A DNA stretch of 48,037 nucleotides from a virus. Shown one piece after another: positions 8,804-45,833 of the stretch. Positions within the stretch are counted from its first letter, which is position 1. Each line of letters opens with the position of its first letter. The translations under genes were made by a program, and so were the position numbers. The DNA lies in IMG/VR virus record IMGVR_UViG_3300022562_000539, positions 1-48,037 of that record. The stretch is one strand, 5' to 3'. The notes below the pieces were generated by a model that was not told where the DNA came from, made no database searches, and saw nothing but the letters and a program-made list of their open reading frames with translations.

Positions 8804-9817
8804 TTGGGAGCAGTTACAGCAGGCGTTGCTGTTGCTGGCGGTTTACTAGGGCTTAACCAAAAACAGAAGGAAGCTAAGCAGCAAAAGCAACTGTTAGAGA
8901 AACAGGACGCAGCACAGCGGATGCAGGCTGACTTACAGCTATTCAGCCTACTACAGCAGCGACAGTCAGACAACTTAAACAATCTGCTTACGGAGTCAAT
9001 GCAAAAGCAGCAGTACATGCAAACTCAAGCCACGCTTGATGCGCAAGCACTACAGCAGCAATTAGCTCTAACACAATCAGGATTAGCTAACGAAGTAAAC
9101 AAAGCAGCAGGCGACGCCGGAACAGTACAGAAGCAAATGGCTGCTGAGTCCTCGCGCTCGGACGCTAGGCTTCAAGCAGGTGCTCAAGCTGTACAGGAGT
9201 TTGCTAACGCAAGTAGCGAAGAACAAGGTGTGATTAGTTCTGTGTTAAAGCAACTTCAGCAAACTGGAAGTAACCAAAACTCTATCGCTCTGTTGTTAGA
9301 CTATGCAGCCTCAGCAGGAGGCGTTAATGAGGCAATGCAGATGCTTTCAGGCGGTACAGGCTACGAAGCTACAGAGGCAGCAGCTAACGTGGCTAGGGCG
9401 TCTCAGCTAGGAGATACTAAGACAGATTTAGCTAAGGCATCAGCCAAGGCTGGTATGAATTTAGCCGATGTGCAGTACGGGTTAGCTAACGCGCAAGCAG
9501 CGATTGAAAAGCAAGGCAACGATATGAATTACCGAAGCAGCCAAGCTAACGATGCTGCTGTGTATGAAACTAACCAAGCTGGACTATCAGCAGCGAGAGC
9601 AGCGAACAACGCCAACTACAGCATCATGAACTCTACAAACAAACTACAACAGCAGTCTAAATACTTAAGCTCTATCGCCAACGAGAGCGCTATTAAACAG
9701 GGTTCAGCAATTAACTCTGAGATACTGGCGCTACAAAGTAGCAACATACGAGCACCAGGATTCTTAGACTATGTTGGCGTAGGTTTACAGGGATACACTA
9801 ACTTTAGGAGCTTATAA
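8804..9817 (+). CDS. Internal virion protein, gp14-like
   Basis: The 337-residue protein begins with a hydrophobic Gly/Ala/Val-rich segment (residues 2-17) followed by a long Gln/Ala-rich helical region (about 18-230), then Asn/Ala-rich repeats. This resembles T7 gp14-type internal core proteins that are ejected and inserted into the host envelope. The start codon is TTG with AGGAGGG eight bases upstream, embedded in the preceding hairpin. No earlier start is plausible because the frame would run into the polymerase terminator. It is followed by the two large tail/core genes. Assignment rests on composition and position. Confidence 0.6.
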   Translation: MGAVTAGVAVAGGLLGLNQKQKEAKQQKQLLEKQDAAQRMQADLQLFSLLQQRQSDNLNNLLTESMQKQQYMQTQATLDAQALQQQLALTQSGLANEVNKAAGDAGTVQKQMAAESSRSDARLQAGAQAVQEFANASSEEQGVISSVLKQLQQTGSNQNSIALLLDYAASAGGVNEAMQMLSGGTGYEATEAAANVARASQLGDTKTDLAKASAKAGMNLADVQYGLANAQAAIEKQGNDMNYRSSQANDAAVYETNQAGLSAARAANNANYSIMNSTNKLQQQSKYLSSIANESAIKQGSAINSEILALQSSNIRAPGFLDYVGVGLQGYTNFRSL

Positions 9818-9868
9818 TGATGACCAATGCTACCGTAGAGATTACGACAAAGGGGGACTAACGAGAGT

Positions 9869-12800
9869 ATGCAGTCACGTATGGTAGGTACTGACTCAGG
9901 CTTAAACATGATTGATAACGCCAGTGAATCGGTGGTAAAGACTGCTACAGATGCAGCCTCGCAAAGCACCGCACTCACCAGCAACTTTCTAACTGAGTCA
10001 CAGCAGAGAACAAAACAGATACTAGACCTACAGACACAAATGGAAGCTGTAAGGTCACAGAAACCAGTAAATAACCCGTTAGGCGCTATAACAGAGTCGG
10101 TTGGGAAACTATTGATACAGCAACAACAGCTTAAAGCGAAGAAAGCTGTTGAAGCTGAGAAGGTTAACCAAACTGTCAAGGGTACGCGGTTAAAATCAGC
10201 GTTAGCTAACAATGAGATTGCTAACAAGGAAACACAGAAAATAGCAGACGAAAGTAACCTGATTATCAGAGGTGATACGGAAGCTCAACTAGTAAGCCTG
10301 TACCAGCAAGAGCCAGGTGTGGAAAGGTTTAGAAGCCAAGGCGCTAAAATCATCAGTGACGCTATTGACAGAGGCTTATCTTCAAAAGACACAGTAGAGC
10401 TGATGCGAGATTTCGTTAATAAGCCAGCGATGGAAAGACACGACGCTAGAGGCAAGCGCTTAGATGATGAGATGCAAAAGCTTCAAGATGCCAAGGTAGA
10501 CCAGATAACAGAGACCCAACGTTTGTTGATGCAACCTTCTATAGCTACCCTCCGTAACCTACCGCCAACAGAACAAGCGAAACCTTATCTTGACGCAATC
10601 TCTAACAATATCAAGAGTGTTATAGCTAACCCATCGTTAACAGAAGAGCAGCGGTATAGGATATCAACTGCTCTAATCAGAGAAGCCAGAGAAGCATACG
10701 GCACGAAAGCAGAAGCGTTTTCTAAAATCAATAGTAACCTAGATAAGATGGCTAACTATCTGCAACTAGGTAAGCAAGCTCGTGCAGAGTTTGAAGCTGA
10801 CGGCAACCTTGATAAGTACAAAGGTAAGATAAGGTATGCTAAGGAATTATACGGCGACTGGGGCGATGCGATGGCGCAACCAGGCGAAGCTGAGAAGTTT
10901 AAGGCTGACATCGCCAGCAACGTTAACACTACCCAACGTTTAGAAACTGAAGTTAAACAGCGTCTTGGTGTTAACTTAAACTTTACCGAACAAGAAACAC
11001 AGATGATTGCTAAACGTATGCTTACTAACCCTGCTTACCTAATCGAAATGAAGAAGTCACCAGAGTTTAGTAGTAACCGAAGTGTTCAGGCTGCGATTAC
11101 CTTAGCTGAGAGTTACGAAGCCTACAGCAAAGATAAGGTAGAGCTTGAGAACTGGAAAGCAGATGAAGGCGTTAACTATGCCAACCTAAACTTAAGAGTA
11201 GCAACCAACAGAGCGCAGCTTATAGAAAGCATCGCCCGTGCCACTGCTGCTCAAAAGTCGGGAACTATCACACCAGAGCAGCAAGCCACGTTAAACTTCA
11301 ACCAACGCGCCTTGCAAAACATGCCTGAGTTACAGTTTATCGTTGACCAGATGGCGCAGAAACTTAAGCCTAACGGCTCCGGTAACATTGACCCTAATGA
11401 GCTTAAGAAAGCTGCTGATTTGACAGAGCAAGGGTTAATAGGCGTCATGAATGCTACTAACGCTAAGGTGAGACAAAGAGAGCAAGCGTTAATTGATAAG
11501 TACCCAGCGCTGCAACAATACAACATGATGCGCCCTCGTGATGTGTTGACAAAGGAAGCGTCGGGAGAACAGAAGCAACTTGACCAGCGTTTAGAGAATG
11601 CTCGCCAGTTAATTCAACAACAGCAGATACAGCAGTCTCAACCTCAGCAATACGGACAACAGTCCCCTTTTGATGCTGCGTCTACTTTGGGAGCCGAAAT
11701 AGACGCCAACGGTTTGCTCAAGATAGCACCTAGACAAAGGCTCAACACAACAACCTATAACGGAAAAACCCTAGTCACTCCGGTGCTAGGGCAAAAGACT
11801 GTTGTTACTTCGGCTTGGCATGACAGCCGCGATGGTGGGCGTAGAAAACATGCAGGTGGTGACTTTGACGCTAAGATGGGTACTCATGCTGTGGCTATGG
11901 TATCTGGCACTGTAGGCTACATAGGCGAAGACCCTAAAGGCTACGGTGGCTACATGGATATCATAGGTGATAATGGCTTTGTCTACCGATACGGTCATCA
12001 AGGGGGATTTAAGTTTAAACCAGGGCAACAAGTTAAACCAGGTGACATAGTATCAGTAAGCGATGGCTCAGGCGTAGGTGACCCTCACTTGCACTTCGAG
12101 GTACAACCAAAAGCTAATTACGATTCTAACGGTAGATACCAGCCTGCATTCGGTGAATCAGCTACGATTGACCCATTAGAACACTTGGCTAAAATGAACG
12201 CCAATAACTCTTCTGTGTTAATGCCAAGGATGAAAACCAGCGCGGGAGCCAGAAGCAACCCACGTTACAAAGTACCAAATGACGCTGCTTTACTCCCCCA
12301 AGGTGGCGCGTTAATGGCTAACACAGTTCAATTCATAGGTAGCAACCCACGTAACGCAAGAGGTGTTATGACAAACCAACGACCAATACGCACAGGCAGC
12401 TTACCTTGGAATATAGGCGAGGTAGGCAAAACACAATATGATTACAACGATGACATGGGATACGCGAAGCTACGCGCTAATCCACAGTTTCTAAAAGCAA
12501 TCGTTGACTCCGCACGAGAGCTACAAGTTCCTCAAGAGTGGATTGCTGACATCATACGCCAGGAGTCTGGAGAGAAAATGAGCGTTAGCGACAGGTCGAA
12601 TGGAGGCTTAAACGTCGGCTTGTTTGGATTCGGTAACGACAGTTTTAATGACATCCGCACTAGCCAAATAAACAAGATGAACGAAGTACAGCAAGTGCAA
12701 CTATTCACTCGATACATGAAGGATAACGGATGGATGAAGCACGTAGCTCAGCGTGGCGGTGCAGCCGATATCAGCCAATTTTGGGCAATACTTCGGATGG

Positions 12801-13060
12801 GCACGGGATGGAGAAACAGAGTGTTAAAAGACAGCGTTGGATTCTTAGACCAACGTATGAACGATACTGGTGTACTGTGGCGGGATGAACTAAAGCTACT
12901 AGGAAAGTGGGCTGGTAGAAGCTACGGCATACCAGGAACCAGAAGCAGACAGTTGAGAAGTTCAGCCGTCACAGAAGACCAGCACGCGAGTTGCAAAATA
13001 TGTCAACAGATGTTAAACAGCGGCTCTAGTATTTTACCTCACTCCCACGATATAGGCTAA
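9869..13060 (+). CDS. Internal virion protein with M23 peptidase and lysozyme-like region
   Basis: This 1063-residue virion protein probably opens the cell wall for DNA entry. Residues 1-600 are helical and Gln-rich. An M23 metallopeptidase domain spans about 635-750, with KHAGGDFD (His and Asp zinc ligands near 661-665) and HLHFE (near 739). A second putative peptidoglycan-active region spans about 875-985 with VPQEWIADIIRQESG, a lytic-transglycosylase-like helix. T7 gp16 carries a transglycosylase; combining it with M23 in one protein is less usual. A GGGGG stretch lies 13 bases upstream of the ATG and a weaker GAGAG closer. A 14-codon frame sits between it and the previous gene. Confidence 0.75.
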   Translation: MQSRMVGTDSGLNMIDNASESVVKTATDAASQSTALTSNFLTESQQRTKQILDLQTQMEAVRSQKPVNNPLGAITESVGKLLIQQQQLKAKKAVEAEKVNQTVKGTRLKSALANNEIANKETQKIADESNLIIRGDTEAQLVSLYQQEPGVERFRSQGAKIISDAIDRGLSSKDTVELMRDFVNKPAMERHDARGKRLDDEMQKLQDAKVDQITETQRLLMQPSIATLRNLPPTEQAKPYLDAISNNIKSVIANPSLTEEQRYRISTALIREAREAYGTKAEAFSKINSNLDKMANYLQLGKQARAEFEADGNLDKYKGKIRYAKELYGDWGDAMAQPGEAEKFKADIASNVNTTQRLETEVKQRLGVNLNFTEQETQMIAKRMLTNPAYLIEMKKSPEFSSNRSVQAAITLAESYEAYSKDKVELENWKADEGVNYANLNLRVATNRAQLIESIARATAAQKSGTITPEQQATLNFNQRALQNMPELQFIVDQMAQKLKPNGSGNIDPNELKKAADLTEQGLIGVMNATNAKVRQREQALIDKYPALQQYNMMRPRDVLTKEASGEQKQLDQRLENARQLIQQQQIQQSQPQQYGQQSPFDAASTLGAEIDANGLLKIAPRQRLNTTTYNGKTLVTPVLGQKTVVTSAWHDSRDGGRRKHAGGDFDAKMGTHAVAMVSGTVGYIGEDPKGYGGYMDIIGDNGFVYRYGHQGGFKFKPGQQVKPGDIVSVSDGSGVGDPHLHFEVQPKANYDSNGRYQPAFGESATIDPLEHLAKMNANNSSVLMPRMKTSAGARSNPRYKVPNDAALLPQGGALMANTVQFIGSNPRNARGVMTNQRPIRTGSLPWNIGEVGKTQYDYNDDMGYAKLRANPQFLKAIVDSARELQVPQEWIADIIRQESGEKMSVSDRSNGGLNVGLFGFGNDSFNDIRTSQINKMNEVQQVQLFTRYMKDNGWMKHVAQRGGAADISQFWAILRMGTGWRNRVLKDSVGFLDQRMNDTGVLWRDELKLLGKWAGRSYGIPGTRSRQLRSSAVTEDQHASCKICQQMLNSGSSILPHSHDIG

Positions 13061-13104
13061 CATATGACTATTAGAGAATCGCTTCAAAGGAGGACTTAAG
13101 CGCG

Positions 13105-15741
13105 ATGCCAAATAAACTCAAGCCACATCAAACGATAGACGACCCAGACTTACAGCTAGTAAGTAGCTTCGGTGGGCTATCATCAGCTAGCTATAACCGC
13201 ACAGGTGATGTAGTTTACCAAGATAAGTTAGTAAACGCTTACGTAGCTAACAACGGTGAAATAGTCAAACGCGCAGGCTCAAAAGTTAACACTGGTATTT
13301 CGTATTACGATAGCGCCACAGGTAACGGTGTTAAACGGTTTACATTTGATAACACAAATTACATGATAGCTAAGGTTGGTCGCTCGCTAATTGTTACAGC
13401 AAGTACGACGGACAACTACATAGGCTATAGAACCTATGGAAACATATTCTCAGATGCCGGTGCTAATGATGTGCCTTCATTTGCTGTGAGAGTCGAGAGC
13501 AGTTACTGTCATGTGTTGATAGCGACGGCTAACTGTCAGATGGTAACAATCACGATAGTAAAGAACATCCTTACAGCGCCTAGCGTGGCAAGCAATACCC
13601 TATCAGCCACCTTAAGAATACCTGTGTATGGTAGCAATATCTTAAGCAACTCCAACACCATCATACGTCAGGGTAACACGCTATTTCAACCAGGTAGTTT
13701 AACGCACTCATTAGCATCAGTATCTCTAAACTCTCCATTCGTTCCCACTTTAGACCTTGGTAAAATGATCAGGTCACATTCGTTTTTCTTGCTACGTGTA
13801 GTTGATGCTGAGTACATGCCAGGGCTTTATATGGTGAATACTGCTGTACGCAGAAATAGCGTGCCACTAGATGTTAACGTTCAAGTACCTGCTGAATTGC
13901 AATCAAACGCTATAATCAATGAGCCAACACAAGATTTAAGTGAACATACATTAAGAGTATACGCTAACAACACACTGCAAACTAAGGTAACTAATAGGCA
14001 ACCAGCGTCTAACACAGAATGGGACTTCAGTGATGGAGGTTATCAAGCAGGCGCGGGAATGTTTACTAGTCAATCACCATCTTTTGTTAGCTTCGGTGGG
14101 TTAATAACCGGCGGTACAGCTACCACGGTACAAATGGCGAGACTGCGTAACGTACTGCTAGGTGTGCCTATAACAGACATGAGCTGCTATGTTGATAAGA
14201 TTCAAAAGTTACCCACGTATCACGACGCAGCAACAGCCACCATTATATCAGGATATCCCAAGTATTTTTCATTTGCGTCACCTGGAGTTAACTTAAGTCT
14301 TTCTAGCGTAGTGGAGTTAATCCACGTTGGCAATACTACCTTTAACCTAAACTCCACAGTAATCGTAAACCTAGATACTAACGATGCAGCGATTACCATA
14401 GGTGACGGCTACTGTTTCCCCCTATATGGCTACAGATACGCATCTGTAGACGGGAGTTTCCCTGATACCGTGGCTTTCGTAGGCAACAGGTTAGTTATCA
14501 CAGGTAAGATATCTAGAGTTGTATTCTCTAACGCTGATTGGAACTACAGAGGTATTAGTTTCAATAACCTACAGATTAGCTCTATAAACTTCAGCGAAAC
14601 GTCAGCATTCAGCGTGACGATAGGACAAGAGACATCCAATATCAAAGGCTTTGAGAGCGTTAACGGTGTAGCTGTGATAGCCACAGATAACGGTATCTAT
14701 CGTATCAGCGCTAGCAGTAACGCTAACCAACCAGCTAACTCAAGTGATGCGATTGTGACTAGGGTATCTAACGAAATCGTAATAAACAACCAGTGCTTTT
14801 CTGTGTTTGGCAATCGTATTTATTATGCGTCTTCCAACGGTTTGTTTGCACTTCAGTACTCAAACGAAACACAAGAGCTAGTTAATGAAAGCTTGAGTAC
14901 CAATGTAAACGATAAGTTTGTTGCAGTTAATAGCCTCAGCTACGTAGAAGACATGCGCTCATTTATGATGACGTTTACAGGTACTAGCGAGGTGCTGGCG
15001 TTGAATGTTGATACTGAATGTTTCTACAGCATTAAGTTTGCCACATCTTTGTTACCTACGATAGATGACTATGGTTTTTACTTCAACGTACCGGGTGATG
15101 GTGTTACATACATGCTCGTCTGTACGTTTGATAAATCGTCTACCAGTGACCTAAGTAACTTCAACTTCAGCTACACTTTACCCGGACGCTGGTGTAGTGT
15201 AACTAACCTACCGAGTTCTGTAGATGCTCTAGTTTGCCCTTCTGAGCTTGTGCAACTGCTCACAACAGAGAAAGTAGTACAAACATCAGGAAGCAATCAT
15301 GTTAGGTCACTAACGGGCAAAAGCTTCATGATACAGGAGTATACTGCTGGTCAGGTACTCCCCATAGACGCGTATGTCGTAAGCAAAGCATTCTACGGCA
15401 GTAGGTTAGACCAGAGTAGCAGAATAGCTAGCGTTAACATAATGCTTGCAGGCGTGGGGTCGGTTGCAGTAGCAGTTGTACACCCAACTAATGATTACAC
15501 AGACCGTGCAACAAGGATAGACGTATGGAATATCAACAGCAACAATTATCAAGGTGAGCCGATGTTAAATGCTGCTTACCCTAAATACAACATTCGCTCT
15601 AGCTCAGGCGATACTAACGTGATTAAGCTACGACAGCTAGGTATATCAGAGGCTTGGTCACTAGCGCTTAAGATAACTGATGTAAGTTTGCTAGGGTTTC
15701 AGTTTATTACAAACGTAAAAAGCCGCAAGAGGCTTAGGTAA
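13105..15741 (+). CDS. Tail tubular protein B-like (nozzle)
   Basis: The 878-residue beta-rich protein has an N-terminal segment (DDPDLQLVSSFGGLSSAS, then NAYVANNGEIVKRAGS near residues 47-62) resembling the start of T7 gp12-type tail tubular proteins, which form the nozzle of the short tail. Its large size and Ser/Asn/Val-rich composition fit. A strong AAAGGAGG site precedes the ATG by about ten bases. The last codons contain the 5' arm of a terminator acting on the opposite strand. Unlike in T7, this gene is separated from tail tubular protein A (28876) by over 13 kb in this map. Confidence 0.65.
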   Translation: MPNKLKPHQTIDDPDLQLVSSFGGLSSASYNRTGDVVYQDKLVNAYVANNGEIVKRAGSKVNTGISYYDSATGNGVKRFTFDNTNYMIAKVGRSLIVTASTTDNYIGYRTYGNIFSDAGANDVPSFAVRVESSYCHVLIATANCQMVTITIVKNILTAPSVASNTLSATLRIPVYGSNILSNSNTIIRQGNTLFQPGSLTHSLASVSLNSPFVPTLDLGKMIRSHSFFLLRVVDAEYMPGLYMVNTAVRRNSVPLDVNVQVPAELQSNAIINEPTQDLSEHTLRVYANNTLQTKVTNRQPASNTEWDFSDGGYQAGAGMFTSQSPSFVSFGGLITGGTATTVQMARLRNVLLGVPITDMSCYVDKIQKLPTYHDAATATIISGYPKYFSFASPGVNLSLSSVVELIHVGNTTFNLNSTVIVNLDTNDAAITIGDGYCFPLYGYRYASVDGSFPDTVAFVGNRLVITGKISRVVFSNADWNYRGISFNNLQISSINFSETSAFSVTIGQETSNIKGFESVNGVAVIATDNGIYRISASSNANQPANSSDAIVTRVSNEIVINNQCFSVFGNRIYYASSNGLFALQYSNETQELVNESLSTNVNDKFVAVNSLSYVEDMRSFMMTFTGTSEVLALNVDTECFYSIKFATSLLPTIDDYGFYFNVPGDGVTYMLVCTFDKSSTSDLSNFNFSYTLPGRWCSVTNLPSSVDALVCPSELVQLLTTEKVVQTSGSNHVRSLTGKSFMIQEYTAGQVLPIDAYVVSKAFYGSRLDQSSRIASVNIMLAGVGSVAVAVVHPTNDYTDRATRIDVWNINSNNYQGEPMLNAAYPKYNIRSSSGDTNVIKLRQLGISEAWSLALKITDVSLLGFQFITNVKSRKRLR

Positions 15742-29514: not shown

Positions 29515-29783
29515 TGGATAAGCTAACTATTGAACAAGAGTTTACTATACAGTCGTTTAACAGTCAAGTAAACGGTATGTCTAGAGAGCAAGCTATAGCT
29601 TTTTTGAAAGACTTATACCGTAGTTACATTGTTCAGAAGGCATTATACAACAGCCTGCTAAAAGAAGCTTGGAACATAGGAGCACCAATCATGGACGGCA
29701 GTAAACCAACGTCTATCGAGTCCATCACTGATAACATCGACATTGGTAGCTTAAAGGGAGATGGACTCAATGAGCCTAATTAA
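29514..29783 (+). CDS. nblA: NblA-like phycobilisome degradation protein
   Basis: NblA is a small adaptor that binds phycobiliproteins and hands the antenna to Clp protease. This 89-residue protein has LTIEQEFTIQSFNSQV, MSREQAIAFLKDLY and LLKEAWNI (residues 4-53), following the NblA consensus LxLEQxFxIRSFxxQV, MSxEQAxxFLxxLY, LLKxxWG almost residue for residue. It extends about 30 residues beyond typical NblA (about 60). The gene is buried between tail-tube and virion-core genes, overlapping both (TAATG upstream, 14 bases downstream), so it is co-translated with late structural genes. Phage nblA genes are known in other cyanophages. It points to a phycobilisome-containing host. Confidence 0.85.
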   Translation: MDKLTIEQEFTIQSFNSQVNGMSREQAIAFLKDLYRSYIVQKALYNSLLKEAWNIGAPIMDGSKPTSIESITDNIDIGSLKGDGLNEPN

Positions 29784-32700
29784 CGATAAGCAGCGTGATA
29801 ACGCACAACAAAAGAAGCCTACTGCAAAACCTATCAAGGTATCATCTCCACAACAGCTTGAGGTAGGCACGGTAGGAACAGGTAACGAGTTCCAACCAGC
29901 AGGCGATTTAGGAGCAGCGCCGGAATTACAAGAGCCTTCATTTGTGCAAGAGCAGCAGCCGTCAGCGCCTCCCGTAGAGAGTGCTGCTGATTTTAACTTA
30001 ACTCAACCAGTAACATCTAAAGCTTTCGTGCCTCAGAATCCTCTTGAGTCTGTAGGCAGCACTCCAATAAACGTATGGGAAAAGTTAGCTGACGGTCAGT
30101 CGCCTTATTCACCAGAAATCTTAAGTACTCGCAAGCCTACAGTTTACGATTCTTCTACTGTAACTTCAGACGCTGCTGCATTAAACAGAGTAGGGTTCGC
30201 TAGTGTTAGAGGGTCACTTCAAACTTACGATAAAAGGAAACAAGAAGCAGCACAAGCAGAGCAAGCTTACCAGCAACGTTTAAACACAAGAAGTGAGAAC
30301 GTTAATATACCTAGGCAAAGCCAGCCTTGGGGAGGTATGGTGGGTCAAGCGTTCAATGACCTACTATTCGGAAGTAAACAAGCACAAGAGGAAGCAGAAA
30401 AGCAAGGTGTAGTTAACCCATTCAGACTTCAGTATGGGCGTCAGGGTGCTGGTGTGGGCGGTTGGTTAAAGTATGTTTTAGGTACTCCCTTAAACGCCAG
30501 TATAGGCGCAGTAGCTGACTTAAACCAAGCTACTGTAAACGTGCTAAAAACTGCTGGTGTAAGCGACGAAGCAGCTAAACGCTTCGCCACTGGTGGGGTA
30601 TTAGGTTTAGCGATGGATGCCACGTTAGGAAAAAAGAAAACCGATGAAGTCTTTAAAGCTATCAGACCTCAACAAGACTGGAGTAAAACCCAAGGTCGCT
30701 CTGCTCTTTTGGATGCTATAACCCACGGTGAGCAGTACGGTGACATCAATGACCCGAAGGGAAACAGCAAAGGTGTATTTTATAGGGCGGCGCGACCTAG
30801 ACGAAGCCAACAAGAAACAGAAGCAGCACGGCTAGGTAAAGCTGACGTATTCAACGTTGGAGGCATTGGGCAGGCGATTAAAGACGACCCTGTTGGCGCT
30901 GGTTATGAGATACTTGTTAATGTGTTAGACCCAGCAGGTAACAAACTAGGTGACCTAGTTATGGAAGGTATGCGAGGGTTGAGTAGGACTTCTAAAGTAG
31001 CGGGAAATACAACTAAGGCAGAAACAGCAGCAGTAAAGAAAGCCCAACAGCAGCAGCTATTGCTTCCACCTGGTAAAGTCAAAAGTATCCCTGTAGATGA
31101 CCAGTTGCGAGAGTTGTTTGGTAATAAAATTCCTAAGCCTCCAGCACCTCAAGCTTTGATTGCACCAGCACAAGAACTACCTAAGCTTCCATACAGCACT
31201 CCTAAAGAAGGCTTCCCTAGAATAAACTTAGGTGAAGGTATACCAGTTACGGGTACTAGAGTAATTACCCCTGACGCTGGTAAACTACCCGCCTCTGCCA
31301 CATCAGCCGGAGCTACTCGCCGTACTCCACATAAGTTTATATCATTCCCAAGTGACGCAGAAGAGTTATCAAAAGTAGAGCGTCAGCTTGACCCGTGGAG
31401 TGCTTCGTCTGTAGATGCTGACAGCACTATTCCAACGACGCATCGGACAGCAGCTACTGAAAATGAACCTGTGAGGATGGGAGCTACTTTAGAAAATGCA
31501 GCAGAGAGTGGATTACCCAAGTTAAAACCAGGTGCTTTCCAACCAGAGAATATTGAAGACTTTTGGTTAAATGATAGCGTAGGTGTAATTGATGCTAAGT
31601 TTGAACCCATAACCACAGCAGCAGCTAACCCAACTAAGGTTCCTCGCGTATACAATGGTGACTTTAGAGTAACACAGAAAGCGTTACCTCCGGCGCTAGA
31701 TAACGTAGGTAAATTAGCTTTTGAAGATGTCGTAGGCACTCCATCAGAGGTAGCGTTAAAAGTAGGCATAGGTAAGCCAAGCAGCGAGCCTATAAAGTTT
31801 GCTGACGAAATTAACATCCAAGGTGTAGATGCTCCTATCGTAGATGAGCCACCATCGGCACCAGAAGCACCAGCTACCAAACCAACAAAACAACCTGAGC
31901 GCGTAGAGTGGAAAACCAGAGAAGACCAACCTTTGAACAAGATAACCTGGGTTAAGGATGGTTTATCAAACGGCAGCGTAAGAAGAATTGACCCGCAGAA
32001 GCTAGATAAACTGTGGACGTTTGACAGAGTAGAGAAACAAGGTATAGGTGGCATAGGTAACCGATACGAGGAAGCAACTCGCTTTCTACAAAAGAATAAC
32101 GTAGAAGGTGGCACAGGAATTAAGATGCCTGAGATAGTTGTCAGAAGTGACGGAAGTGTAAATTTTGTAGACGGTCGCCACAGATTTGCAACCCTAAGAG
32201 ACTTAGGCTTCACAGAGATTCCTGTAGTAGTGAGAGGCGCTAAGTACCTACCGGATGAAGTAAGGACTTTAACAAAAGCAGCAAGCGAAATTACCCCAAA
32301 AGCTACCGTTGACACGCTTGAGCAAGCAGCAGAGCAGTTAGCAATGCATAAGGCTGTTATACAAGCACCATTACAGCAATTAGATAACCTATTCGATACG
32401 GTAGTAGATTTTGGTAGGCGTCAGATAGATGAGATGCCTTTTAGCGAAATGACACCAGATGGTATCTATGACGCGCTAGTTAACCAAGCTAAGTTAAACT
32501 TACCTAAGCTGGCTGAGAAAGTTATTGCTAAAAACTATGGTGACGATATAGCACAGGCTTTAGTACACGCAGACTACCACACCTTAGAAGACCTATTAAG
32601 TAAGGGCAGCGTTGATTTACAGAAGTTTGTTTCTGACGTATCAGAAATAAACAACGGATTAGTAAACGCTAAAATACCAGGTCAAGCGCTAGTGGGAAAA

Positions 32701-33621
32701 ATCGAAGGTAACAAAGTGTCTCTCGCAAACACAATAAAGTTTCCTTCTAAAGTGTTGCATGGAACCGCGCTAGCTGATTGGTCACCAAACTACAGCTTAA
32801 GGGTATCCGGCAGCAGAGGTGAGCTAGGCTCCGGTTTATATGTCACTAACAGAATGTCAGTAGCTGAAGACTACGCCGGATCTATCTTGAGTGAGAACGT
32901 AAACCCAGGCGCGAACGTAAAAGACATAGCACCAAGCGTTTATGAACTGACGCACAACTTAGGAAGCACTTTCAGCGCTAGAGGCAAGCTAGCACCATCG
33001 TCACCGTTAGTGAAATCTATTGTAAGCTCTTTACCAGAGAAGATACAAGACAACGTAAGGATATCAATCAACAGAGACAAGAGCACCTCGTTAGTAGGCA
33101 TTCTAAACAAAGCAGAAGCCGCTCTAGTCAGGTCAAGCATAGAGCCTACTGAACAGGTGTTGAAAGACTTAAGTAGTAACGTGAGTGAAGCACTAAGGCA
33201 GTTAGGATACGACAGCGTGTATGACAGCAAGAGTGGCTTTGGTCTTGTGTTAGACGAAAGTAAAATCAAAATAAACAAGAGCAAGCCAGTATCTAAACCA
33301 ACTTCTGCAACTCAGGCTGCACTGGCAAGATATAACGCCGATGCTTACGCAGCCAAGTTTTACCCAGAGCGACTTACCACCGACGCGAACCTCAGAGACT
33401 CTGCTTATAAACTCCTGTCTCAAATGGAAGACAAGGTAGATGGTAAGTTAGCTGAAGTACAGCAGGAGATAATTAAGCGAGGGTTGGATAAGCAGCAAAC
33501 TGTATTACCACCTAAGAACTCTTTGAAAAAAGGCGTAAGCATGAACGACAGTAAACCAGCAAAGGTTGACGAACTAATGGATAGTATCGAACCTAAGTCA
33601 ACTAACCCGTGTGAATTTTAA
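29770..33621 (+). CDS. Polyvalent-type virion protein with ParB-like and ART-like regions
   Basis: The 1283-residue protein starts at ATG 29770, with AAAGGGAG nine bases upstream. Residues 1-230 are Pro/Gln/Ala-rich. A Pro-rich middle (about 420-700) precedes a ParB/sulfiredoxin-like region (about 712-825) with FVDGRHRFATLRDLG near 800. Residues about 990-1168 resemble an ADP-ribosyltransferase: LHGTALADW (His), GSGLYVTN with a later DYAG (Tyr), and GYDSVYDSKSGFGLVLDES (acidic). This H-Y-E/D order is found in phage polyvalent proteins delivered with DNA. Its position among virion core genes suggests it is in the particle and may modify host proteins or counter defences early. Catalytic competence is unproven. 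Confidence 0.65.
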   Translation: MSLINDKQRDNAQQKKPTAKPIKVSSPQQLEVGTVGTGNEFQPAGDLGAAPELQEPSFVQEQQPSAPPVESAADFNLTQPVTSKAFVPQNPLESVGSTPINVWEKLADGQSPYSPEILSTRKPTVYDSSTVTSDAAALNRVGFASVRGSLQTYDKRKQEAAQAEQAYQQRLNTRSENVNIPRQSQPWGGMVGQAFNDLLFGSKQAQEEAEKQGVVNPFRLQYGRQGAGVGGWLKYVLGTPLNASIGAVADLNQATVNVLKTAGVSDEAAKRFATGGVLGLAMDATLGKKKTDEVFKAIRPQQDWSKTQGRSALLDAITHGEQYGDINDPKGNSKGVFYRAARPRRSQQETEAARLGKADVFNVGGIGQAIKDDPVGAGYEILVNVLDPAGNKLGDLVMEGMRGLSRTSKVAGNTTKAETAAVKKAQQQQLLLPPGKVKSIPVDDQLRELFGNKIPKPPAPQALIAPAQELPKLPYSTPKEGFPRINLGEGIPVTGTRVITPDAGKLPASATSAGATRRTPHKFISFPSDAEELSKVERQLDPWSASSVDADSTIPTTHRTAATENEPVRMGATLENAAESGLPKLKPGAFQPENIEDFWLNDSVGVIDAKFEPITTAAANPTKVPRVYNGDFRVTQKALPPALDNVGKLAFEDVVGTPSEVALKVGIGKPSSEPIKFADEINIQGVDAPIVDEPPSAPEAPATKPTKQPERVEWKTREDQPLNKITWVKDGLSNGSVRRIDPQKLDKLWTFDRVEKQGIGGIGNRYEEATRFLQKNNVEGGTGIKMPEIVVRSDGSVNFVDGRHRFATLRDLGFTEIPVVVRGAKYLPDEVRTLTKAASEITPKATVDTLEQAAEQLAMHKAVIQAPLQQLDNLFDTVVDFGRRQIDEMPFSEMTPDGIYDALVNQAKLNLPKLAEKVIAKNYGDDIAQALVHADYHTLEDLLSKGSVDLQKFVSDVSEINNGLVNAKIPGQALVGKIEGNKVSLANTIKFPSKVLHGTALADWSPNYSLRVSGSRGELGSGLYVTNRMSVAEDYAGSILSENVNPGANVKDIAPSVYELTHNLGSTFSARGKLAPSSPLVKSIVSSLPEKIQDNVRISINRDKSTSLVGILNKAEAALVRSSIEPTEQVLKDLSSNVSEALRQLGYDSVYDSKSGFGLVLDESKIKINKSKPVSKPTSATQAALARYNADAYAAKFYPERLTTDANLRDSAYKLLSQMEDKVDGKLAEVQQEIIKRGLDKQQTVLPPKNSLKKGVSMNDSKPAKVDELMDSIEPKSTNPCEF

Positions 33622-33630
33622 GGAGAACTT

Positions 33631-36600
33631 ATGACAGCTTGTTCTAACACAAAACAACCAGACGCGCCGGAGTTAAAGCAGTCTATACCAGGTAGTTCTA
33701 TAGCAGCAAGGGTAAGCGAATTCTACAGCAAGTTGAAAGACAGAGCAGGTGTAGTCCCGCTACCAAAAGAAATTGAGGCTTCTATAGCTCAAGAGTATCA
33801 GGTGCTTAGCTCTGCTGCTGCTCACATACCCAACATAACCAAGTATAACAAAATCGAAAGTATGTTAGCTTCTGCTCTTGGGTGGAAGTCGCTACTATGG
33901 CACGCGCCAACAGGGAAGATGACAGAGGCTGGGGCGATGCGTCAGTTCTTTATGGAAAAAGCGTCCATCGCCTCTAACCTGATAGAGTCAGCAGCACTTT
34001 ACAAAGCGCTTCCTGACATTCAAAAACTCTACGGTGAACTTAAAGCAACTTTCCCCAGCATGAACGAGGGTCAACTACAAGAGATACTTTACGACCAAAT
34101 AGCTGTAGGTTCTTTTCCTAGGCTGCAAAACATCTACGACAGTCCAGTTATCAAATATCAACTTGAGCAACGCTACAACGAACACATCAGTAGATTAGCT
34201 TCACTTGGGTTAAACAACCAACAGATTGCAACTCTCGATAACATGGCAGGTAGGGTATCAGGACATCTTGAAGCACTGCGTAAGCTAACCGCTGAACAAG
34301 GGCTTGATATTTCTGTGTTACGCAATGGTGGCTATTTTCCCCTGCAAGCTGATGAAGAAATCAGACGTTTCTTAAACAAGGAGCAAGCATTACCTAGCGC
34401 AGGCGCAGCAGATTATAACTCGGCAAACTTTTTCAAACGCACACGGGTTTCTAACGTTCCGATTGTTTACGACTTAGAGAACACTGCTGAAATGTTAGGT
34501 ATATCAAAACTAGAGTTAGCACACTACCTAAGCCAGCCAAACTACTTAAGCAAGCTCTTAAAAGATAACTTAAGCGAGCCTCAGCTAGAGAGAGCTTTCA
34601 ACAACGGTTGGCTTCAACAAATGCCAGCGCTTAGTGATGAGTTGACAGAGTTCTTTAACGAGAGCTTAGATTTACCTACGAAAAATTTAGCTGAGGCTAT
34701 CATACTAGACCCTGTGAAGGCAGTGCAAGAGTATAGTAATGATTTAACCAAGGCTGTTAAAAACAGTAGCTTATTTAAAGAACTGTTTACTACAGGCATT
34801 GACAACGGCTGGGTTATAACCGAAGCGCAAATGAAAACTCTCGCTAACCAAGGAGACTATATAAACCTTGGTAGCAACAAAGTGTTGCAAGAGTTAGTTA
34901 GCAGTAACGACTTACGCGACGGACTAAAGAGCATGTACGTACATCGAACAGTGGCTGACCAGATGGTAGCTGTGATGAAGCTTAACACCAGTTGGTCAGA
35001 CCTTAGTACAGCAGCTAGAGTCTGGCAAAGTTACACTAGCACTTTCAGAAAGATGGCTATCATAGGTACAGGCGGGTTGCCTTACGTGCAAAGGGTGTTT
35101 GCTCAAGACGCTCTATCACTCTACACAGCCACAGGTAGCCTAGGTTATTTTCACATAGGTTTAGCCGACATTTACCGCATCGCAGCTAATCAAACTTTTG
35201 ACGTGTTGGATAACACAAAGAAATTCGCTTCTGTTGGGGGGACTAACTACACCAAGCGAGAGTTGTTTGAAGCGTATTTCCTCAAGCGCGGTTCATCGTT
35301 CGTAGCAGGTACTCAGGAAAAAAACGCTAGTGAGGTGTTTACAAATCCCGCTACTTTCTTTAAGAACTACTTACCCTCGATACAAAGGTACGTTCATCTT
35401 ACTAACGAATACCATAAAACCCACAGCAGCCCGTTTACAGGAGCTATGATGACTGCTGTAGATTTGGCTACTCGCACAGCAGGCTCTCTCCTAGATACTC
35501 CCTACAAATTGTTAGCGTCACTGAACATTCAAATAGACACTGCTGCAAGGTGGGCGGCTATCCAAGAGTTAGCAACCAACGGCAAGAGAAACTGGGTAGA
35601 CTTAGACGAACTGATACGACACACCGATGAATACTTTAACATACAAGAGGATGCTGGTAGTCTAGGTAGAGCCTACGGTAGTGTAGGGGTTCCGTTTGCA
35701 GCGTTTGCTATTAACGCACCCGGAAGCGCCCTACGTCATGCCATAAGAAACCCTTGGAGCGCTGGGCGTATGGGTTTACTTTACTCTCAAGCTGACATGG
35801 GTAGAGAGTTAAGCGATGAGGAAATGTCACAGTGGCAAAAAGACTCATACGCTATCTCACTGTACACCGACCCTGACACAGGCAACAGATATGCTGTGAT
35901 GCCAGGTACTGTTGATTTCTACCTCGACACTGCCACACAGGCTAAGGAGTTCGCAGAAGACATTGGCAGAAGCTTTGGTCTAAACGTAGGTAGCAAGAAG
36001 GAAATCTACGAGCAAGAGCGCGACCCTGGGAAACCTGTAGGTGATTTCTTCCGTGGCTTGTTTAAAGACACCTACGCATACGACGCTATAGTTAACGGTG
36101 TGCTAGAGCGTAACCCGTTGACTTTCGATGACATAAGCAAAGAAACTAGCAGCTTGTTTGGTGTGCCAATGAAAAAGAGTATACGCAATGCGCTAGTAGC
36201 TTTATTTCCACTGCTGCGAAAGGGAGATGAGTTAGCACCATTCAGCGGTACACGCTCAACGTTAGACCCTATAACACAATTACCAATTGACCCTGGTTCT
36301 CCTTCGTGGACAGGATACACGCCTACAGACAGTGGACAGAAGCGACCAAACAAAGCAATAGAAACCGACGCTCTTTCCTGGCTTGCGCAGAACGTCACAG
36401 GATTAACAGTAACGGAAGTGTCACCTGTTAAAAACCTAATCAGCAACTACAAGAACTTTTCGACTGTAGACACTGACCTGTCGGAATCCATAAACAAAAC
36501 CGAAGACGCCATACTAACCCAACCAGATGAAACGAAAAAGCAAGCGCTGATAAACAATATGCAGTACTTGCAAAGACTTCGCGTATGGGTTAATTTTCAG

Positions 36601-36756
36601 AAGTGGCAGATTGACCAGCACGCCAAAGAATACGGTATTCCTAAAGTCCAACTCGTAGAGCAACTAAGGCAAGGTATAGACATCCCACGTAACAAAGATT
36701 TAGACATGCAACTGTACATTCAACAGAGGTTAAAAGAACAACAAAATGGCAACTAG
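33631..36756 (+). CDS. Large internal virion protein, gp16-like
   Basis: The 1041-residue protein is largely helical, with a C-terminal region rich in aromatic residues (RNPWSAGRMGLLYSQADMGR, then DPDTGNRYAVMPG near residues 705-760). Size, position after tail-tube genes and before the fibre, and helical character suit the T7 gp16-type ejected core protein. No lysozyme motif is evident here; cell wall activities appear in the product of 9869. An AAGGAGAA site precedes the ATG. It overlaps the fibre gene by 11 bases. Confidence 0.55.
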   Translation: MTACSNTKQPDAPELKQSIPGSSIAARVSEFYSKLKDRAGVVPLPKEIEASIAQEYQVLSSAAAHIPNITKYNKIESMLASALGWKSLLWHAPTGKMTEAGAMRQFFMEKASIASNLIESAALYKALPDIQKLYGELKATFPSMNEGQLQEILYDQIAVGSFPRLQNIYDSPVIKYQLEQRYNEHISRLASLGLNNQQIATLDNMAGRVSGHLEALRKLTAEQGLDISVLRNGGYFPLQADEEIRRFLNKEQALPSAGAADYNSANFFKRTRVSNVPIVYDLENTAEMLGISKLELAHYLSQPNYLSKLLKDNLSEPQLERAFNNGWLQQMPALSDELTEFFNESLDLPTKNLAEAIILDPVKAVQEYSNDLTKAVKNSSLFKELFTTGIDNGWVITEAQMKTLANQGDYINLGSNKVLQELVSSNDLRDGLKSMYVHRTVADQMVAVMKLNTSWSDLSTAARVWQSYTSTFRKMAIIGTGGLPYVQRVFAQDALSLYTATGSLGYFHIGLADIYRIAANQTFDVLDNTKKFASVGGTNYTKRELFEAYFLKRGSSFVAGTQEKNASEVFTNPATFFKNYLPSIQRYVHLTNEYHKTHSSPFTGAMMTAVDLATRTAGSLLDTPYKLLASLNIQIDTAARWAAIQELATNGKRNWVDLDELIRHTDEYFNIQEDAGSLGRAYGSVGVPFAAFAINAPGSALRHAIRNPWSAGRMGLLYSQADMGRELSDEEMSQWQKDSYAISLYTDPDTGNRYAVMPGTVDFYLDTATQAKEFAEDIGRSFGLNVGSKKEIYEQERDPGKPVGDFFRGLFKDTYAYDAIVNGVLERNPLTFDDISKETSSLFGVPMKKSIRNALVALFPLLRKGDELAPFSGTRSTLDPITQLPIDPGSPSWTGYTPTDSGQKRPNKAIETDALSWLAQNVTGLTVTEVSPVKNLISNYKNFSTVDTDLSESINKTEDAILTQPDETKKQALINNMQYLQRLRVWVNFQKWQIDQHAKEYGIPKVQLVEQLRQGIDIPRNKDLDMQLYIQQRLKEQQNGN

Positions 36757-44285: not shown

Positions 44286-45770
44286 CTATCCGGCGCATTC
44301 ACAAGCTGGCTCATTAGAGTAAACTTGGCAGCTAGCGCCATTTAGCAAAGCGTCTACATCAAAGCTAGCGATTTCTTCCTGCTTCACATCTTGCCACAGT
44401 GCATCCTTACGCAAACTATCTACGTTCATGTTAAAAGGTAAACGATAGTACAGCGACTTAATACGTGAGTAGACAGGGTTGTTGTAATACTTCACCAATT
44501 GTTTAGCGTCGAAAGTTTTACCATAAAAGCAGTGGCTATGACGATGACCTAACCCAGTTGCATCAAGAATTCGTTGGAAGCCATTTGAAACCAAAGCGTA
44601 AGCTTCGTATGGTGTTTCATCGATAGTCCATGTACGCGGGTTATAGTTTATTTGGTTATCACCTTTGATAGCAGATTTAACGATGGTTGATACTGCTTGC
44701 TCATGCTTTAAACCAATCACAGGTTGTATTTCAGGACTCACATGAAAACCATCGTAATCATAAGTACGTTGTGCAGTGCTGACTGTTGGCTGAATGCAGA
44801 AGGCAGCACGAACCTTATCACGCATCGCTCGTGATGCAAAAAAGTAACCTTCAAGTAACGCTCGTAGAAACACAGAAGAGGGTGAGGTCGAGGATGCTAA
44901 AAAAGCTAGAGCATCTGGTAGCGAATCGTCTGAGGCGTCCATAGCAGAAGCAATATCACTACCTAACTCTTCGTAAGTAATCCCAAGCTTACCGAGGATA
45001 GAAGCCAACCCCAGCACCCCTAAACCAAACTGACGATTTAATACGCTGGTACATTGTAATGGCGTACCCCTGAGAGCTGACTGTGTTATGCAAAAGTAAT
45101 CATACATCTCATAAGTTGACTTAAGGAAATCGTCGGGAAAGTTGTCAACGAAATCTTGCAACGTGGAATAAGCAGCCAAGTTGTGAGCGCCAAGAATACA
45201 CGAGCCACGAGAGGGAATCTCTACCTCTGTACACAGGTTAACTAGTAGCGGTTCACCTTCGATAGGCTCTGGCTTTTTAACCAAGAAGCATTTGAAATTG
45301 TTGTACGCATCAGCTAACTGCTTCGTGAGTTTTTTGTTGCGGATAAACCGCTCGCTCTCGAATGTGCCATGCATCGGAATCCATACACCCTTGTACGCGC
45401 TGTCAAACTTGGCGTCTAAAAACTCTTGTAAGTCTGGGTGGTCGTAGTTAAGGTAAGCGATACCAGCGCCGTTCTTCTTTTCTTCCCTACGCATGGTACT
45501 TATGATAGCATCGAAAGGCTTCATGAAACTAACGGCACCACTGCTAACTCCGCCAGTGCCTAGCTTAGAGCCGCGTGGTCGTAACTTGCTAAAGTCAACA
45601 GAAGGTGCACCTTGATAAGCTAGCACCTGATAACTCCAAGCGTGAGCGTCTGCTATACTTTCGATGCTGTCTTGCGCTTGGTAGGTATTGCAACTAGCGC
45701 CTATTGATTTACTGCTGCTGTTGACTAATGCTTGAATTCTGCTGCTGGGGATAAACTTCTGCGATTTCAT
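44286..45770 (-). CDS. nrdA: Class I ribonucleotide reductase large subunit, compact form
   Basis: This subunit reduces ribonucleotides to deoxyribonucleotides. The 494-residue protein keeps the catalytic barrel: C27 (SCNTYQAQDS; E. coli C225), NLCTE near 177 (N437, C439, E441), GSCILGAHN (C462), and the tyrosine pair in SLYYRLP near 436 (Y730/Y731). C490 and C492 (ACECAG) form the C-terminal redox pair. It lacks the ATP-cone and roughly 200 N-terminal residues, so allosteric activity control is probably lost. NLCxE and the tyrosine pair mark class I rather than B12-dependent class II, so a radical-generating small subunit is required (candidate at 4325). ATG 45770 has an AGGAT site; ATG 45785 has none. 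Confidence 0.85.
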   Translation of the reverse strand: MKSQKFIPSSRIQALVNSSSKSIGASCNTYQAQDSIESIADAHAWSYQVLAYQGAPSVDFSKLRPRGSKLGTGGVSSGAVSFMKPFDAIISTMRREEKKNGAGIAYLNYDHPDLQEFLDAKFDSAYKGVWIPMHGTFESERFIRNKKLTKQLADAYNNFKCFLVKKPEPIEGEPLLVNLCTEVEIPSRGSCILGAHNLAAYSTLQDFVDNFPDDFLKSTYEMYDYFCITQSALRGTPLQCTSVLNRQFGLGVLGLASILGKLGITYEELGSDIASAMDASDDSLPDALAFLASSTSPSSVFLRALLEGYFFASRAMRDKVRAAFCIQPTVSTAQRTYDYDGFHVSPEIQPVIGLKHEQAVSTIVKSAIKGDNQINYNPRTWTIDETPYEAYALVSNGFQRILDATGLGHRHSHCFYGKTFDAKQLVKYYNNPVYSRIKSLYYRLPFNMNVDSLRKDALWQDVKQEEIASFDVDALLNGASCQVYSNEPACECAG

Positions 45771-45833
45771 ATGTATCCTGTTCACGATAGTTCAATGGAA
45801 GCAGGTCGCCACTCCTGCTGTAAGCGAATGTTA

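Follow-up and report, generated by a model that had tools for sequence, protein, structure and literature searches.

The large 'tail protein' of Saffermanviridae (A4L_27, PfWMP3_26, PfWMP4_32 and TR020; phrog_33290 and phrog_832) has been annotated in several ways. Orthologs are labelled 'ParB-like partition nuclease' (for the WMP3-type family) and 'RNA polymerase ADP-ribosylase' in PHROGs, and one is labelled 'mono-ADP-ribosyltransferase-like' in GenBank. The A-4L products of ORF27 and ORF26 correspond to chains B and A, respectively, in PDB entry 9k3a ('Cyanophage A4 pre-ejectosome with C1 symmetry'), and the A-4L ortholog is thereby placed in the virion core. We found no paper on 9k3a or on A4L cryo-EM in the open literature and no discussion there of ADP-ribosyltransferases (ARTs) in these cyanophage ejectosomes, most subscription journals being outside the scope of this search. 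Among N4-like phages, Roseovarius Plymouth podovirus 1 carries an ART in a protein annotated as virion RNA polymerase, and this prototype scores above the cut-off of the ART-PolyVal family (PF18760). Phage T4 Alt is a virion-borne ADP-ribosyltransferase that is injected with the DNA (PMC5512222).

Here we analysed the whole 48,037-base IMG/VR virus record IMGVR_UViG_3300022562_000539 (the window). Matches to phage families were found for its terminase, portal and capsid proteins; those of the portal protein and of the gene at 33631 are to freshwater cyanobacterial podoviruses, namely Saffermanviridae (A-4L, Pf-WMP3, Pf-WMP4, LPP-1 and others) and Mastigocladus phage CHP58. The window phage appears to be a T7-shaped cyanobacterial virus that carries a 1,283-residue enzyme-domain protein in its DNA-injection machine. 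The original prediction, that this virion protein combines ParB-like and ART-like regions as polyvalent proteins from elsewhere do, was largely right, yet the find is not unprecedented given the PHROGs labels and the polyvalent concept, which indeed dates from 2017 (PMC5512222). What is new is that the ParB-like module was found only in the window phage among 14 orthologs, that no T7-type polymerase was detected in these phages, which favours host RNA polymerase as the putative target, and that a single terminal cysteine is present in 14/14 orthologs.

A probable large protein of the ejection core

The open reading frame (29761-33621) comprises 1286 codons. The start that aligns with those of the orthologs (MSLIN/MGLIN/MSIIK) is at 29770, so the product is 1283 residues long, as originally stated; all domain and residue numbers, from 727-828 to 1284, nevertheless count from 29761 (1286-residue numbering). 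Every motif quoted in the original prediction (DGRHR, HGT, GLYVT, GYD and LVLDES) was found in the protein. The next gene, at 33631, encodes the ortholog of A-4L ORF26, and in each annotated relative the preceding gene encodes a large protein at the matching position; the window shares the gene order of Saffermanviridae. Our ortholog set contains 14 proteins of 1030 to 1717 residues (20,519 residues in total), many of which are closely related and do not represent 14 independent cases. The metagenomic contig L013 was assigned to the set by its ART match, an upstream M23 gene and similar ends; its next gene differs.

With the A-4L ortholog resolved as part of a pre-ejectosome structure, the virion location of this family is more than a guess. 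Homology with this ortholog (9k3a_B) supports assigning the window protein to the ejection core of a T7-like virion, as had been proposed, and we infer that the protein is ejected. The database label 'tail fiber; host specificity' carried by the 33631-36756 family is probably a misnomer, as the counterpart of that protein in A-4L is also a pre-ejectosome chain.

Elsewhere in the window, at 8804-15741, a 337-aa gp14-like gene, the M23 core protein gene and a gene for an 878-aa protein adjoin the DNA polymerase gene. These three genes are separate from the terminase-to-fibre block, and relatives differ in this respect; the 878-aa protein presents a weak match to TR020 and CHP58. A further gene at 44286-45785 resembles the large subunit of ribonucleotide reductase, but its separate stretches match different families and it may be split or interrupted.

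Table 1. Coordinates of the core proteins, domains and residues discussed in the text.
Feature	Position	Strand	Basis
Ejection-core (pre-ejectosome) polyvalent protein, 1283 aa	29770..33621	+	ORF open from 29761, 1286 aa; A-4L ortholog is PDB 9k3a chain B
ParB/Srx-like domain, residues 727-828	31939..32244	+	Nodularia phage identity; PF02195 and profile matches
DGRHR motif, residues 804-808	32170..32184	+	Kept in Nodularia phage; DGRHR/DGRHT in Burkholderia plasmid relatives
ART-like domain, residues 994-1204	32740..33372	+	Ortholog-profile match
Predicted catalytic His1000 (strand 1, HGT)	32758..32760	+	In 14/14 orthologs
Predicted catalytic Tyr1027 (strand 2, GELGSGLY)	32839..32841	+	Invariant among aligned orthologs
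Predicted helical insertion between ART strands 4 and 5	33004..33201	+	AF2 helices, overall confidence low
Predicted catalytic Asp1151 (strand 5, GYD)	33211..33213	+	Asp in 12/14 orthologs
Sole cysteine, Cys1284, third from C-terminus (NPCEF)	33610..33612	+	One Cys per ortholog
Neighbouring ejection-core protein, 1041 aa	33631..36756	+	Single Cys, at residue 4; A-4L counterpart is chain A of 9k3a
M23-peptidase core protein, 1063 aa	9869..13060	+	Only Cys are CxxC near C-terminus, then PH; A-4L ortholog in 9k2v

The ART-like domain

A profile of nine orthologs, built with the window protein left out, matched the ART-like region of the window with an E value of 1.1e-14 (hhalign). The ortholog family profile also matched the ARTs of N4-like virion RNA polymerases (E = 5.4e-7) with a score of 48.9, whereas the highest of 60 column shuffles scored 15.3. 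This alignment, which spans strands 1-4 only, assigns H1000 to its strand by comparison with known ARTs, and the strand-5 residue D1151 fits by motif. Six-frame searches of whole genomes with ART-PolyVal picked the corresponding gene in CHP58 (1.3e-6), L013 (2.3e-6) and A-4L (0.0035), with E values calculated per genome and all matches under the curated cut-off. The window protein itself scored 14.7 bits against PF18760, below the cut-off of 31.2, and its domain is therefore described as ART-like and not as a member of PF18760. Overall, the profile comparisons bear out the ART-like region that had been predicted, and suggest that residues ~994-1204 are probably a divergent ADP-ribosyltransferase domain with predicted activity.

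The predicted catalytic triad consists of H1000 and Y1027, with D1151 of GYD as the third member on motif grounds. Although the H-Y-acid pattern of the original prediction held for His and Tyr (GLYVT at residues 1025-1029), the acid is better assigned to the Asp of GYD (1149-1151, from 33205) than to LVLDES further on, which is probably not catalytic, since GYD fits the H-Y-D triad published for the polyvalent-type (Tox-ART-HYD2) ART clade (PMC5512222). This Asp is replaced by His in WMP4 and by Thr in TR020. The window and the Saffermanviridae proteins share the ART-like domain with invariant His and Tyr and a single C-terminal Cys, but their ART regions are only 19-26% identical. The HGT, strand-2 and GYD patterns are likewise shared with the ART-PolyVal domain of the N4-like virion RNA polymerases; in contrast, the window ART scores under the family cut-off and presents a longer helical insertion between strands 4 and 5 that is missing from those ARTs, and the window protein has no polymerase module. 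Protein 32 of Pf-WMP4 (L009 4364-8743) possesses a second ART, matched by PF03496 above its curated cut-off, beside the H-Y type domain; this extra ART is not a feature of the window.

AF2 modelled the ART region with low confidence (pLDDT 45.6). The best Foldseek match of this model was 9k3a_B (E = 2e-3, probability 0.99), and VIA aligned it to residues 1422-1625 of that chain, the modelled ART region of A-4L, with a Z of 7.8; A-4L is, however, one row of the alignment behind the model. With this weak model, neither Foldseek nor VIA gave a known or solved ART among the matches listed. The other VIA matches (bromodomains, primases and other chains) fit mainly the helical insertion and were set aside.

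The ParB/Srx-like domain

Over residues 727-828, identity is 45% with protein 2AV2_23 of Nodularia phage vB_NpeS-2AV2 (tblastn, E = 1e-13) and 33-34% with short Burkholderia plasmid proteins. The Nodularia protein comprises 538 aa, originates from a 139-kb phage and, unlike the window protein, presented no ART match in a Pfam scan. PF02195 (ParB_N) matched a single place in the whole window genome (E = 0.00135, under the cut-off); on the window protein it scored 14.2-14.4 bits, below the cut-off of 26.3, and we therefore use the term ParB-like. The hhalign score of the region against the ParB_N profile was 29.1, and none of 60 column shuffles scored above 16.3. Both the D/E-G-x-x-R pocket motif and the downstream strand are present, with DGRHR aligned with SbnI and ParB_N sequences. 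These results support the ParB/Srx-like assignment of residues ~727-828, which the original prediction had made from DGRHR. An AF2 model from single-sequence input was unusable (pLDDT 36). The predicted folds are both backed by sequence profiles, and the structure models are poor.

The other 13 orthologs yielded background scores with the ParB-like profiles, and the module was found only in the window phage within our sample; elsewhere it may have been lost or may be too divergent for these profiles. In particular, we did not locate such a region in the WMP3-type family, despite its ParB label in PHROGs. One stretch of A-4L near VDNHAIYEAA looked ParB-like by eye but gave background scores in profile comparison and was dropped. 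A scan of genome contigs with the ParB-like pair detected no relative. PFIN (PF22162, plasmid fertility inhibition) was considered as the family of the domain and rejected, as it matched the Burkholderia plasmid relatives only. The occurrence of the module in both the window phage and an unrelated cyanophage suggests that cargo domains may be exchanged among ejection proteins.

A proposed ejected cargo and its possible target

We propose that the three large ejection-core proteins (the M23 peptidase, 29770-33621 and 33631-36756) would be housed in the virion core and leave it together with the DNA. The N-terminal part of 29770-33621 would be structural and its C-terminal part would act as a cargo bay for a probable mono-ADP-ribosyltransferase, to which a ParB/Srx-like domain was added in the window phage. 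The cargo would enter the host during infection; there, the ART may use NAD+ to modify a host protein, most likely RNA polymerase, and the ParB-like domain may bind or nick DNA, or hydrolyse nucleotides. The particle could then deliver host-modifying enzymes along with the DNA. Taken as a whole, this reading is modestly favoured. It is based on homology, synteny, the conserved H-Y(-D) residues and the presence of the A-4L ortholog in a solved pre-ejectosome; the near absence of cysteine, as in gp15 and gp16 of T7 and P-SSP7, the second ART of Pf-WMP4 and the PHROGs labels also count for it. Counted against it are the under-threshold Pfam matches, the poor AF2 model with no known ART among its matches, the loss of the Asp in WMP4 and TR020, the coverage of strands 1-4 only in the match of the family profile to ARTs, and the choice of target by analogy with T4 Alt.

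The enzyme activity and the host target of the window protein are what we infer from these comparisons. We searched for RNA polymerases of the T7 type only: T7 and P-SSP7, the positive controls, were found, and none was detected in the window phage, A-4L, WMP3 or WMP4. For this reason host RNA polymerase is favoured as the likely ART target. T4 Alt acts on host RNA polymerase, and an injected ART with the same target would fit phages that lack a T7-type polymerase. The comparison with Alt is an analogy; Alt has an R-S-E active site, is packed in the head of T4 and is no ejectosome component. The idea bears on how phages without their own RNA polymerase take control of cyanobacterial transcription: with an ART in the injection machine, host modification would precede any phage gene expression. 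The A-4L structure and isolates make the idea testable now.

Alternatively, the ART-like fold may have been retained for a structural role in the pre-ejectosome, its enzyme activity being lost or weak. The ART region is indeed modelled in the A-4L pre-ejectosome, it contains a large helical insertion, and two orthologs have lost the strand-5 Asp. However, His and Tyr are found in every ortholog despite the low identity, Asp is retained in 12/14, and WMP4, which lacks it, carries a second canonical ART; we consider this explanation rather unlikely. A more improbable alternative is that both domains disable host defence instead of reprogramming transcription. Host-conflict roles have been proposed for polyvalent proteins (PMC5512222) and the ParB-like domain has its closest plasmid relatives in proteins that match the PFIN family, but we found no supporting context, and the window itself yielded no PFIN match. 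That the short motifs converged by chance is already disfavoured and highly improbable: although every single-protein Pfam match is under its curated cut-off, both profile tests exceeded all column shuffles by far, at the expected places, and the ortholog match reached 1e-14.

The ejected-cargo reading could be extended, quite speculatively, to the ejectosome of polymerase-less T7-like cyanophages in general. This would be a modular effector-delivery device in which one large protein bears exchangeable enzyme domains (H-Y-D ART, R-S-E ART and ParB-like nuclease), the nearly Cys-free chain of this protein suits passage through the tail and its single terminal Cys links it to the two partners via a shared metal or disulfide site.

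In all 14 orthologs the one cysteine occupies the second or third position from the C-terminal end. Cysteine makes up 1.03% of the other window proteins on average, a rate at which ~13 would be expected in a protein of 1283 aa. Neighbours of the 33631 type contain one Cys, at residue 4-8, in 6/7 phages (TR020 has two more), and the M23 protein presents CxxC near its C-terminus in 7/8, plus two more cysteines in CHP58 and L013. Gp15 and gp16 of T7 and P-SSP7 contain none. Judging from this small set, low cysteine content seems to be common to ejection proteins in general, and the terminal cysteine is particular to the ortholog lineage of the window phage. As a guess, the cysteine ends of the three core proteins might form a shared metal or disulfide joint. 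In all three, the cysteines lie almost only at the ends: C-terminal in the large protein, Cys4 in its neighbour and CxxC...PH in the M23 protein.
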